DNA from: Lentibacillus sp. JNUCC-1
Lineage (GTDB): Bacteria > Bacillota > Bacilli > Bacillales > Amphibacillaceae
NCBI RefSeq assembly: GCF_009741735.1
Contig: NZ_WHOH01000001.1
Coordinates: 806,001 to 870,000, forward strand
Reading direction: 5' to 3'
DNA length: 64,000 bases
Both the position numbers and the translations under genes were made by a program. The notes beneath the pieces were generated by a model. That model had not been told where the DNA came from and ran no database searches. It was given only the letters and a program-made list of their open reading frames with translations. The stretch's first letter is position 1. Each line of letters starts with the position of its first letter. This document shows, in pieces, positions 51,191 through 55,540 of this stretch.

Positions 51191-51443
51191 AATGACAGAC
51201 AAGTTCCGCTCACACTAAAAAACAGTGAGGAAACAGATCCCTGCTATTCAATTTAAAAATGTATAGTCTAAATTTATATAGTCTGCCAGTCCAGTTAATG
51301 AGAGGAATCCCAAAATAGATCCTATATACCTAGTGAAATAACAGAGGATTGAATTCGAAGTAATTTTACAGAGCGATAACAAATAAGGAATTGTTCTTAT
51401 TCATGATCGAGTAGGAGGGGGTGACTAACCCCCGACCTCTCAC

Positions 51444-51475
51444 ACCACCGTACGTACGGTTCCGTATACGGCGGT
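51444..51475 (-). ncRNA. Group II intron domain V
   Basis: ACCGCCGTA pairs with TACGGTGGT (9 bp, one G-U). A two-base CG bulge and a short TACG/CGTA upper stem with a GAAC loop complete the standard domain V shape, including the CGC catalytic triad. Confidence 0.85.
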
Positions 51476-51480
51476 TTCAT

Positions 51481-52785
51481 TTAAGTCCAACGCAACGTTT
51501 GATATCGTTTAAGCAGACTCTTAAGCCCTTGGATTGACCAGTATTGGTCACCAAGGGCTTTATGCAAGATGGGGCTTTTGGCAATCCGCCAATAAGCCTT
51601 TCTTGTGTTGGCCCATTCCCACGCTTTCTCTTTCTTCACGCCGTATTTCACAAGATTCTTGTACTTCGTTTTGACTAGCTTCCATTCTTTCCACCTAATC
51701 ATTCGCAGTCTTCTTCGAATCCAGGCATCCAGTTTGTTGAATGTGGTTGGCGTTTCTGCCAGTTGATAATAACCAAGCCAGCCCACCAAATATCGATTGA
51801 GTTTCTCGATTCTATCTGTCATATTCATGGATTTTCTTCTGGATGTAAGAGCCCGGACACGTTGTTTGAAGCGTTTGATACTCTCTTTGGGTATCCGGAT
51901 TTTCGGGTGATCTTTGTGAAACGTGAAGGAAAACCCCAGAAATTTACGTCTCCATGGGCGATCCACCGCACTTTTCTCTACGTTGACCTTCAGCTTGAGT
52001 TTACTTTCAATAAATTGTGTAATATTTTCCATTACACGCAACCCTGCACGTCTTGATTTGACGTATATATTACAGTCGTCCGCATAGCGGACGAAACGGA
52101 GTCCTCTTTTCTCCAATTCCTTGTCCAACTCATCTAAGACGATATTGGAAAGTAGTGGACTGAGCGGACCACCTTGCGGAGCTCCTTCTGTATTAGGACG
52201 CACTAAACCCTCTTCCATAATACCTGCCTGCAGGTATCTTCGAATCAGCTTCAATAGATGTGGGTCCTCAATACGTTTGTTCAATGTGCGCATCAAACGA
52301 TCGTGGTTGACTTTATCGAAGAATTTCTCTAGGTCCATGTCAACGACCCAACGGTAGCCTTCTTTCATGTATTGCCTTGCTTCTCTTACGGCATCATGTC
52401 CTCGCTTGTTTGGTCTAAATCCATAACTGTGTTTCGAGAACGTTGAGTCGTATTCTTCAGTGAGAACTTGTGCAATTGCTTGTTGGATGAATCTATCCAA
52501 CACGGTTGGGATGCCTAACTTCCTCTTCCCGCCGTTTGGTTTCGGGATTTCGACACGACGGACAGGTTGAGGACGATAAGACCCCTCTTGGATTTCTTTT
52601 CGCAGGCTTGTCCAATGTTTCATGACATGCGCTCGTAGGTTTTGTACGGGCATTCCATCTACACCATGACTGCCTTTATTACGTTCAACGCGTTTTAGTG
52701 CGTTTATTAAGTTTTCCCGTGATAGAATTCGATCCAACATGATATCCAACTCCTGCGTGAATTGTTCTCTCCTCTTGTGTGGCAA
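51481..52785 (-). CDS. ltrA: Group II intron reverse transcriptase/maturase
   Basis: 434 residues. RT blocks are in order, from PVRRVEIPKPNGGKRKLGIP and YGFRPNKRGHDAVREA to QGGPLSPLLSNIVLDELD and the catalytic RYADDCNIYV. A maturase X domain ends the protein (WLGYYQLAETPTTFNKLDAW). No HNH endonuclease domain is visible, as usual in class C. It is intact, so the intron may still be mobile. Confidence 0.95.
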   Translation of the reverse strand: MPHKRREQFTQELDIMLDRILSRENLINALKRVERNKGSHGVDGMPVQNLRAHVMKHWTSLRKEIQEGSYRPQPVRRVEIPKPNGGKRKLGIPTVLDRFIQQAIAQVLTEEYDSTFSKHSYGFRPNKRGHDAVREARQYMKEGYRWVVDMDLEKFFDKVNHDRLMRTLNKRIEDPHLLKLIRRYLQAGIMEEGLVRPNTEGAPQGGPLSPLLSNIVLDELDKELEKRGLRFVRYADDCNIYVKSRRAGLRVMENITQFIESKLKLKVNVEKSAVDRPWRRKFLGFSFTFHKDHPKIRIPKESIKRFKQRVRALTSRRKSMNMTDRIEKLNRYLVGWLGYYQLAETPTTFNKLDAWIRRRLRMIRWKEWKLVKTKYKNLVKYGVKKEKAWEWANTRKAYWRIAKSPILHKALGDQYWSIQGLKSLLKRYQTLRWT

Positions 52786-53290
52786 TCACTTTCAGCCCTT
52801 CTAATGTCCCCCACGGAATTCACCGTTTCCTCCATTAGGAAGGATATATGTTTCTGCTTCATCAAGTGTTGCGTACGCGAAGCGACAATTCTCCTTAAAT
52901 GATTCAGCCCTTCATGGGAACTCTAGATATCCCCATTACTATGGCGTCTGCTGACTTCTGACAGTTCAGTGAGTACTTACGTACTCAGTTACACAATGGG
53001 TTGTGCATTTCTGCCAGACCTCCCAGGGTAAGCACACACCCTTCCTCCCCATGTCCCCGCTTCATCTACTTTATGCACCCTTTGGCAGTATGGGTTTTGG
53101 CTTGTTGTGCAGCCTCGTCCAAGTACATCTAGCCTTATGAAGTTCGTGTTCCTCGGGGCGGAGATTTGCCGCAGACTTCCTTCAGATTCCAGATTTCTCT
53201 GGACACCCTTGTCCTTGGCTAATCGCTACTACTGCCTTCACGATTCGGGACTTTAACCCTATAGAGTGTGCGCATGCCTGGCACACGCAT

Positions 53291-53345: not shown

Positions 53346-55540
53346 TTAACGAAGTAACTGAAGTACTCCCTGTGGTTGTTGGTTGGCTTGCTTTGCCGCT
53401 ATGTCTTTCGATCATAGAATAGACTATATCTTCACCCGTGTTAGTGGGGCTGGGCACTTCGGTTGATATTGGTCAACCTACGAATCTCATTGCCGTGGCT
53501 TGTGCGTTAGGCAGTGCATTCTAGTCGTTGAACCTTCGCCAGGTTTTCACCTGAGGCGCTTGGCTGCTGATTGTCCATTGTGACATTGCCTTGTTTTTCA
53601 AACCATCACGTCTGCCGTTTCCAGCTGCGTTGTGGTACAAGACACTTTAGGAGGTCCCAGCAATTCACCCAGTTATGATCCAGTCCGTTACCAGGCTGGA
53701 CGCCCGTTCACAACGTTACCGAAGAAGTTGTAGTACTCCTTGAGGACTTTGTTGTGCTTGAGCTAGCATTGATTGTGCCGCTTGTGAAAGGATGTTGTTC
53801 TTAGTGAAGTTCATCATTTCTTTCGCCATCGTGCGAACATTTACTTTCATAAATGACCAGACTATATCTTCACCCTTCGAATGCTTGCTTGACCATTCGT
53901 GTTGGGGCCGGGCACTTCGGTTGCTGAAAGTGTTGCGGCTGCTTTCAGTTCCCTACGGATTTCATCACCATGTCTGTTTGAGTTAGGTGGACTATCCTAG
54001 TCGTTGAACCTTCGCCAGGCTTTCGCCACAGGCGCTTGGCTGCTGATTGCCCAATCTCGTCTTTTCTTAGAACCATCACGTTTGCCGTTTCCAGCTGCGT
54101 TGTGGTAAGACAAGCTTAAGGGGTTTCCAGCAATTCACCCGGTTATCATCACTGACCGTTCCCAGCCAGGACGACTGTGACTGTTGTTGCCTGTTTAAGC
54201 GGCAACTAAGTCATAATCTACGTCGCGGATACGTGATTCAGCGGCGGTTAGGTTTTCAGCTGATGCACCAAGGTTGTTGATTGTGTGGTCTAAGCGGTTT
54301 TGAACAGCACCGAGCTTCGACCGTTCTGCGGATACAGTGTCAATAGCTGATTGAATGGTTGTAATTGCTTTGTCAGCATCTGCTTGTTCACCAATGTATA
54401 TACCACCTGTTGCTTCAAGATCAAGCTTACCAGAGGTAGCGCTATTAGCCACGCTTACTGATCCGTTTTTAACAGCGTTGGTAAAGGTAACCTCTTTTGG
54501 ACTTGTCTCAGCTACCTTTGCATCCTTCAAATCACTAACGGGAGCATTTAAATCCGTATATGTTTTACCATCTTTACTTACAGCAACAAAATTCCCATCA
54601 TTGTCTTTAAGTGCGTATTTAGCGTCTTCAACACCAACACCAGCTTCAGTACCATCATCCATAATATCTGTCGCTTTAAAGCTTACAACAGAATAGGTAT
54701 TTCCAGCTTCTAATTCCCCTGATTCTTGTTCCGCTACTTTTTCAACGAAACCAGCTTTAAGACTATCCGCACCCATATCATCAATTGCAACACTTAGATT
54801 CTGGCCTTGATTTGCTCCAACATGAAATGTAGCTTCAAAGTCCCCAGTCAGTAAATCTTTTTCGTTAAACTGAGTGTCCTTTGAAATATCTGTTAGTGCA
54901 CTTGCAAGCTGATCAACCTCTTTTTGAAGCTCAGCACGGTCTGTATCAGTATTCGTATCGTTCGAACTCTGAACTGCCAACTCCCGCATTCTCTGAAGAA
55001 TTGCATGAGTCTCATTCAAAGCACCTTCAGCAGTCTGTATAAGAGAAATCAATTCTGTTATCGCATCGGTATTTAACCCGCTGCTTCTTTATGTTTCCAT
55101 AAAGTTCAGATCATATCTTCATCCGCTTGGGATGCTCCGCGCTCGTGGGTAGGTTATTGGTTTTGAATCCTCACTACCTGATCGTTACACCTTCCTGGTT
55201 ACATGTTACTCTCAATTCACCAGGCTTGGCTCGGTATTGCCCACCATTCGCACTGCTAGGCGTGGTTTGGGGTTCCACCGAATTCACGGAGTTGTCATCT
55301 AAACATTTCTGCTTAGAGCGGCATTTCCAGTCTACCGTCTTGTGCGTTCTTAGACGCCATTTCCAAACCTTTAATCTGCCCACGCATTTTTTCAGAGATC
55401 GCCAAACCTGCTGCGTCATCCCCGGCACGGTTAATCTGAAGACCTGAAGAAAGCTTTTCCAATGAACCTTGTACTGCGTTGTTGTTGGCACCCAACTGAC
55501 GATGTGTGTTAAGTGCTGAAATGTTGTGATTGATAATCAT
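53346..55540 (-). CDS. hag: Flagellin, four exons split by three group I introns
   Basis: Inferred exons are 55540-55334 (69 codons), 55049-54216 (278), 53829-53761 (23) and 53390-53346 (14 plus stop). Joined, they give a 384-residue flagellin. The N-terminal domain is [17 protein letters not shown] through [20 protein letters not shown] variable centre follows, then [25 protein letters not shown] and [18 protein letters not shown]. At every junction the exon ends in T and the intron in G, as group I splicing needs. The ATG at 55540 follows GGAGGT, downstream of a sigma-D promoter. Read unspliced, each intron 1 or 2 would truncate the protein, whereas intron 3 offers an alternative C-terminus. 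Without splicing at introns 1 and 2 the cell could not make this flagellin. Confidence 0.85.
53391..53760 (-). ncRNA. Group I intron 3 of the flagellin gene (370 nt), with an in-frame alternative 3' coding end
   Basis: Conserved elements: P (GGTGAATTGCTGG, 53657-53669), R (GTTCAACGACTAG, 53521-53533) and S (GAAGATATAGTCT, 53421-53433). The P7 pairing is GACTA with TAGTC. The first 42 nt of the intron continue the exon frame as [14 protein letters not shown] followed by TAA at 53716-53718, almost the same as the true last exon ([14 protein letters not shown]). No homing endonuclease is encoded. The 5' site is inferred from alignment, and P1 has not been modelled. Confidence 0.8.
53830..54215 (-). 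ncRNA. Group I intron 2 of the flagellin gene (386 nt)
   Basis: P (GGTGAATTGCTGG, 54127-54139), R (GTTCAACGACTAG, 53997-54009) and S (GAAGATATAGTCT, 53859-53871) are present in order, and the P7 pairing is as in intron 3, to which it is closely similar. A GTTGCC/GGCAAC stem follows the 5' end. It separates RDVD from MAKEMM, which are adjacent in ordinary flagellins. No encoded protein. Confidence 0.85.
55050..55333 (-). ncRNA. Group I intron 1 of the flagellin gene (284 nt)
   Basis: A more divergent and smaller copy: P-like GGTGAATTGAG (55211-55221), R-like GTAACGATCA (55179-55188), S GAAGATATGATCT (55108-55120). Its P7 would be GATCA with TGATC. Compared with GACTA/TAGTC in introns 2 and 3, both strands have changed together, which supports the fold. 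It separates NAQDG from ISLIQTAEG, adjacent in normal flagellins. Confidence 0.8.

Follow-up and report, generated by a model that had tools for sequence, protein, structure and literature searches.

In Azotobacter a group II intron lies within the stop codon of groEL, a placement that makes failed splicing nearly harmless. The third intron of the flagellin gene described below (intron 3) would share this property, yet the groEL intron owes it to its position, whereas intron 3 would owe it to carrying a copy of the exon that is lost. Among the literature searched the nearest bacterial parallel is a group II intron, C.te.I1 in a surface-layer gene of Clostridium tetani, where according to the part of the account available one isoform of the surface protein is read from the unspliced RNA and others from the spliced RNAs (PMC3919590). 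However, C.te.I1 belongs to the group II ribozymes, and its four alternative splicing reactions lead to distinct isoforms, while intron 3 encodes the same end twice.

The nearest published arrangement in the same literature is that of fungal mitochondria, since introns of Tremella fuciformis carry at their 5' end a copy of the following exon (PMC7315562). The original prediction on this DNA, that no group I intron with such an arrangement was described, was thus too strong. The Tremella introns are mitochondrial, one of them is 2224 bp long, and the copies were explained as an exchange of gene fragments by intron mobility; the accessible portion of that account contains no selection test on both copies, no coupling to the P1 helix and no bacterial case (PMC7315562).

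Flagellin genes of thermophilic Bacillus have group I introns, as excerpts of two accounts relate (PMC3984707, PMC4853749), and one of these introns was reported as subgroup IA2 (PMC4853749). They resemble intron 3 in ribozyme class and in residing in flagellin genes of related bacteria, and their activity is reported to be temperature dependent (PMC4853749). Neither a tail copy nor a degron-like end appears in the excerpts of these citing accounts; the primary papers might describe them. In the open-licence literature, a scope which excludes Hayakawa and Ishizuka 2009 and 2012, we found no tail copy or degron described in a bacterial group I intron.

The flagellin gene and its two ends

The window analysed comprises 64,000 nucleotides of Lentibacillus sp. 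JNUCC-1, whose genome is 3.69 Mb in size. The flagellin gene occupies 55540-53346 of the minus strand with its ATG at 55540 and consists of four exons and three group I introns. Exons of 207, 834, 69 and 45 nt, joined in silico, yielded 384 codons plus a stop and a product matching Flagellin_N and Flagellin_C. A search of the whole genome with Flagellin_C returned this gene, one other over the cut-off on another contig and one weak match. Exon 1 (55334-55540, minus strand as all features of the gene; 69 codons, with the Flagellin_N match) is followed by intron 1 (55050-55333, 284 nt), exon 2 (54216-55049, 278 codons, with flagellin domain matches), intron 2 (53830-54215, 386 nt), exon 3 (53761-53829, 23 codons, ending in GCT), intron 3 (53391-53760, 370 nt) and exon 4 (53346-53390). 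The Rfam group I model RF00028 matched introns 1, 2 and 3 with 66.9 bits (55343-55087), 71.4 bits (54225-53838) and 59.3 bits (53719-53399), respectively, against a gathering score of 50. The boundaries of intron 1 were inferred from the flagellin reading frame; the site of intron 2 is RDVD/MAKEMM, and relatives without intron 2 read RDVD-MAKEMM continuously. Downstream of the gene, a group II intron spans 51406-53203 of the minus strand; it contains a reverse transcriptase (51481-52785) and by eye follows the apparent terminator of the flagellin gene.

Exon 3 continues in frame into intron 3, the first 45 nt of which (53716-53760) encode 14 residues plus a stop (tail 1), and exon 4, also of 45 nt, encodes 14 residues plus a stop with native-like sequence (tail 2). 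Once introns 1 and 2 are taken out, translation yields 384 residues whether intron 3 stays or goes, and the two products differ at two residues. This in-frame duplicate, its equal total length and the two differences were as the original prediction had them, to the base; the two ends, said to be alike, are identical at 32 of 45 bases. Chance likeness is excluded because, in a comparison with flagellin loci of relatives, 110 of 112 distinct copies of intron 3 among the matches listed keep the 14-codon tail.

Selection was assessed by pN/pS, calculated pairwise and uncorrected over related loci that are not independent; for tail 1 it was 0.146 in codons 6-14, 0.235 over all 14 codons and 0.533 in codons 2-5. 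Tail 2 gave 0.152 overall and 0.176 for codons 6-14, and the last 20 codons of exon 3 gave 0.242. When codons 6-14 of tail 1 were read in the other frames the values were 1.05 and 4.26, and for the intron sequence adjoining tail 1 they were 0.42-0.73. Within codons 9-13 of tail 1 second positions were invariant and third positions variable. By these measures tail 1 evolves as coding sequence.

The tails were compared with each other in 108 loci, i.e. the 110 minus two (L107 and L112) where tail 2 is cut by the end of the locus. They were fully identical in none. Residues agreed at position 2 in 29 loci, at position 3 in 81, at position 4 in 96, at position 5 in 5 and at position 6 in 91, while positions 9-13 agreed in 107 or 108. 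Residues 2-5 of tail 1 are unusual because its first codons also form half of the extended P1 helix of the ribozyme (see below); position 6, which differs in 17 of 108 loci, lies outside that helix.

The original prediction had suggested that two flagellin tails could be made. As distinct isoforms they would let the cell shift the share of RNA that is spliced, for example by temperature, and so choose between tails with unlike assembly or chaperone binding. Such isoforms would agree with the lack of identical tails in any locus and with the temperature-dependent ribozyme activity of thermophile flagellin introns, for which the part of PMC4853749 at hand cites Hayakawa and Ishizuka 2012. Yet the disagreement is mostly confined to positions 2-6, of which all but the last belong to P1, and spares positions 9-13. 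We therefore consider functional isoforms unlikely, and equivalence of the two tails the likelier case.

Ribozyme, splice site and descent of intron 3

By its sequence, intron 3 is a group I ribozyme, as the original prediction had it, and it interrupts the flagellin gene 14 codons short of the stop. Its match covers positions 1-253 of the 253 of RF00028, the general group I model, and none of the group II models of the covariance search matched 53391-53760. A search for a homing endonuclease found no frame of 60 or more residues inside the 370 nt. The 112 distinct copies are 342-399 nt long.

Exon GCU pairs with GGC of the internal guide GGGCGTC (53699-53705), placing a U.G pair at the 5' splice site, and intron 3 ends in GCAAAG with a G preceding the 3' splice site. 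The predicted terminal T of the 5' exon and terminal G of the intron were thus seen at the base level; the G was required by the parsing pattern, so that the parsed copies are no independent test of it. The alanine codon before the site was GCT in 112 of 112 carriers, although any GCN was allowed, as compared to 24 of 40 genes free of intron 3. The guide read GGGCGTC in 108 and GGGCGTT in 4 of the 112 parsed copies, for which the parse required GGCG, and GGGCGTC in all 36 copies aligned without selecting for the guide. It is located 52-57 nt into intron 3, and 33 nt in the tail-less copy of L042.

P1 is extended by pairing between the opening codons of tail 1 and the bases immediately before the guide; at this locus the 5' strand is CACAAC (53751-53756) within tail 1 and the 3' strand GTTGTG (53709-53714) directly after the tail-1 stop. 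The arms of P1 co-vary in relatives. With their own partners they had a mean energy of -6.79 kcal/mol, compared to -4.47 ± 0.18 kcal/mol with permuted partners, and none of 10000 permutations was as good. For the 99 distinct arm pairs the duplex energies were -6.12 and -3.82 ± 0.19 kcal/mol, respectively. The longest helix of the extended P1 averaged 5.51 vs. 4.26 ± 0.12 after permutation (97 distinct pairs), and it was 3 bp or shorter in 8 of these 97 in an ungapped count. When pairs were counted in fixed register, the best register had 58% standard pairs, close to the expectation per column; by eye the helix slides. Taken together, the covariance search, the comparison with intron-free genes and the co-variation of P1 bear out the predicted group I fold, splice sites and duplicate tail. 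A splice site at the start of the Rfam match, 53719, was rejected: the guide would be left without the fixed GCU, the frame would shift into tail 2 and the co-varying P1 would be lost. The in-frame stop of intron 3 agrees with the idea, stated in the portion of a review available, that in-frame stops after the upstream exon may aid folding (PMC3984707).

Of 200 genomes searched at the DNA level (own and relatives), 34 contained a match of nearly full length to intron 3, as counted from the listing. From these, 36 copies were aligned; tail 1 was intact in 33 and missing in two (L035 and the second copy of L042), and one belonged to a decayed gene (L016/L064), a single case with two stops in tail 1. 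A scan of named genomes by the pattern of the 3' junction returned at least 117 stretches; the 80 listed came from genera such as Heyndrickxia, Peribacillus, Oceanobacillus, Planococcus, Sporosarcina, Metabacillus, Fictibacillus and Brevibacillus. All 104 copies parsed from the at least 117 stretches have the 14-codon tail, with 13 stretches left unparsed. The pooled 136 parsed copies comprised, among the matches listed, the 112 distinct ones used above, 110 with the intact tail and two without it. Among 398 genomes drawn from the phylum (E 1e-20), the listed coordinates showed a full match only in the own genome and in one other of the order, which also has tail 1.

The intron-3 pattern left 16 copies unparsed, 7 of them due to upstream sequence that was too short. 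Tail 1 was present by eye in the unparsed L022 and L138 and in L024, L039 and L044, which the pattern had missed; L016 and L064 are the one decayed gene, and L046/L056, L072, L114 and L154 are without flagellin upstream. L056, L072, L114 and L154 are orphan fragments of intron 3 with tail 2, probably left behind by flagellin genes since lost. In L042 and L048 several flagellin genes bearing group I introns follow one another, and 5 of 6 group I matches of genome G076 and 4 of 4 of G089 lie, each set, on one multi-flagellin stretch.

In one FastTree run the copies of intron 3 formed one clade beside eight intron-2 sequences, with the two tail-less copies nested inside. Thus the ancestor of the clade seems to have had tail 1, with two losses since. 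Because the copies of L035 and L042 live without tail 1, it is not indispensable. After the insertion site, 40 of 40 fetched genes free of intron 3, taken from the stronger matches of the DNA search, start with QANQ like tail 2, and tail 1 was therefore rejected as the older, native end; two further such genes (L208 and L209) start with KANQ.

Since the unspliced reading of intron 3 already gives a full flagellin, and orphan fragments occur without an upstream gene, intron 3 might be regarded as dead, a leftover within the 3' untranslated region, with tail 1 as the real gene end and tail 2 never used. Yet tail 2 is under purifying selection and represents the native sequence, the guide, the GCT codon and P1 pairing are maintained across the copies as described, and this gene can yield no full flagellin unless its introns 1 and 2 splice. 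We regard a dead remnant as very improbable.

The likeness of the tails seems to be held at the protein level and not by conversion. The last residue, position 14, was the same in 104 of 108 loci but used the same codon in only 10, an agreement that rests on few switches (12 inferred changes per tail on the intron tree, 7 of them on shared branches) and is limited in weight by the kinship of the loci; position 13 had the same residue in 108 and the same codon in 19 of 108 loci. Synonymous identity between the tails of one locus was 10.94 of 15 as compared to 11.03 with permuted tails. The same residues in different codons and the missing excess of synonymous identity thus suggest that the likeness is kept in the protein. 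A recent duplication or gene conversion that keeps the tails alike without selection for both, though it would fit residues that change together by lineage (G/A/S at position 8, R/Q/G at 14), has these codons and this lack of excess against it, and is very improbable. Both tails seem to be used.

In-frame ends of introns 2 and 1

A C-terminal AA is the core of the ssrA tag recognised by ClpXP. Intron 2 at this locus reads in frame YDLVAA-stop at its 5' end (54195-54215) and so shares the C-terminal AA with the host tmRNA tag, GKQEDYSLAAA. From 77 copies of intron 2, of which 4 gave no exon, 60 distinct ones including this locus were obtained. Their in-frame ends were YALAA (28), YDLAAA (10), YAEAA (5), YTEAA (3) and others; AA was terminal in 57 of 60 and VA in 3. 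The last five residues were exactly those of the host tag in only 2 of 15 genomes (YALAA in G135 and G144), where the 15 are the own genome and 14 of 24 others, ARAGORN naming no tag in the remaining 10. An exact tracking of the host tag was thus rejected, and a general likeness alone is claimed. Segment lengths of 18 and 21 nt were also discarded as evidence, being multiples of three by construction.

In the last two codons of the intron-2 ends nearly all variation falls on third positions (10 distinct forms, pN 0.089, pS 0.678), but pN/pS for the whole peptide was no lower than 0.52 in the 5-residue and 0.40 in the 6-residue set. In folds of single sequences the first two bases of the last alanine codon were both paired in 43 of 60 copies, one was paired in 4 and none in 13, and all 13 copies with the unpaired codon still encode alanine. 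By a single helix register, too narrow a criterion, 10 of 60 copies had no 4-bp partner. RNA structure by itself may yet explain the AA, at least in part.

Another order of the phylum, taken to be clostridial, has a related group I intron whose site, as we read it, precedes that of intron 3 by about 4 nt; its in-frame ends are of the type LERMAA/LEEIAA, with AA in 12 of 12 loci (L255-L266). The tail-less intron 3 of L042 reads QFEQIAA; that of L035 has no AA end. As a control outside the flagellin set we took 23 group I matches in 20 regions, a subset chosen by position away from flagellin places; of the 21 with an upstream frame two end in AA and two in VA, and in one (L308) the frame ends 6 nt before the intron match, which may have no host frame. 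The in-frame end of intron 2 is possibly an intron-encoded degradation tag for truncated flagellin. If true, proteolytic tagging would be built into an intron, of which the open-licence literature searched yielded no description. We consider it an even question whether flagellin group I introns in general encode quality control in their P1 region, with an ssrA-like AA degron mid-gene, a spare C-terminus in the 3'-most intron, and both in one gene.

Intron 1 (55333-55050, minus strand) reads in frame RLEMPL-stop, and most of 16 loci have RLEMPL, KLEMPL or a similar end. It shows no ssrA-like sign and no evident function, and is probably kept as RNA.

Unspliced intron 3 and its spare tail

We favor the view, which we consider probable, that intron 3 is fail-safe, i.e. 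that ribosomes on RNA from which it has not been removed finish a working flagellin. Computation established the anatomy of the intron, the co-variation of P1, coding selection on both tails and the tail throughout the intron-3 clade; that both RNAs occur and both proteins work, we infer. The P1 loop holds the last 14 codons a second time, in frame and followed by a stop. Upon splicing, with exon GCU paired to guide GGC, the protein would end in tail 2, the native C-terminus. A ribosome arriving first would read tail 1 and terminate within the P1 loop, short of the catalytic core, and the flagellin it lets go would still be complete. As the guide lies 7-12 nt beyond the tail-1 stop, a terminating ribosome should cover it and block splicing, and the two outcomes would be mutually exclusive on any one RNA. 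The tail copy would thereby render intron 3 near-neutral for the flagellin gene.

The original prediction that failed splicing is harmless is well supported by coding selection on both tails, but it would apply to intron 3 only; introns 1 and 2 in this genome carry no spare part like tail 1 and must go, and therefore the fail-safe would matter only once both are out. In genomes with intron 3 alone the arrangement may be easily missed because the gene would read as an ordinary flagellin.

A self-splicing intron may thus persist in a bacterial protein gene by encoding the part that it cuts off, and the RNA that encodes the spare tail would double as part of the ribozyme. Intron 3 would be a natural test case for the competition between the ribosome and splicing.
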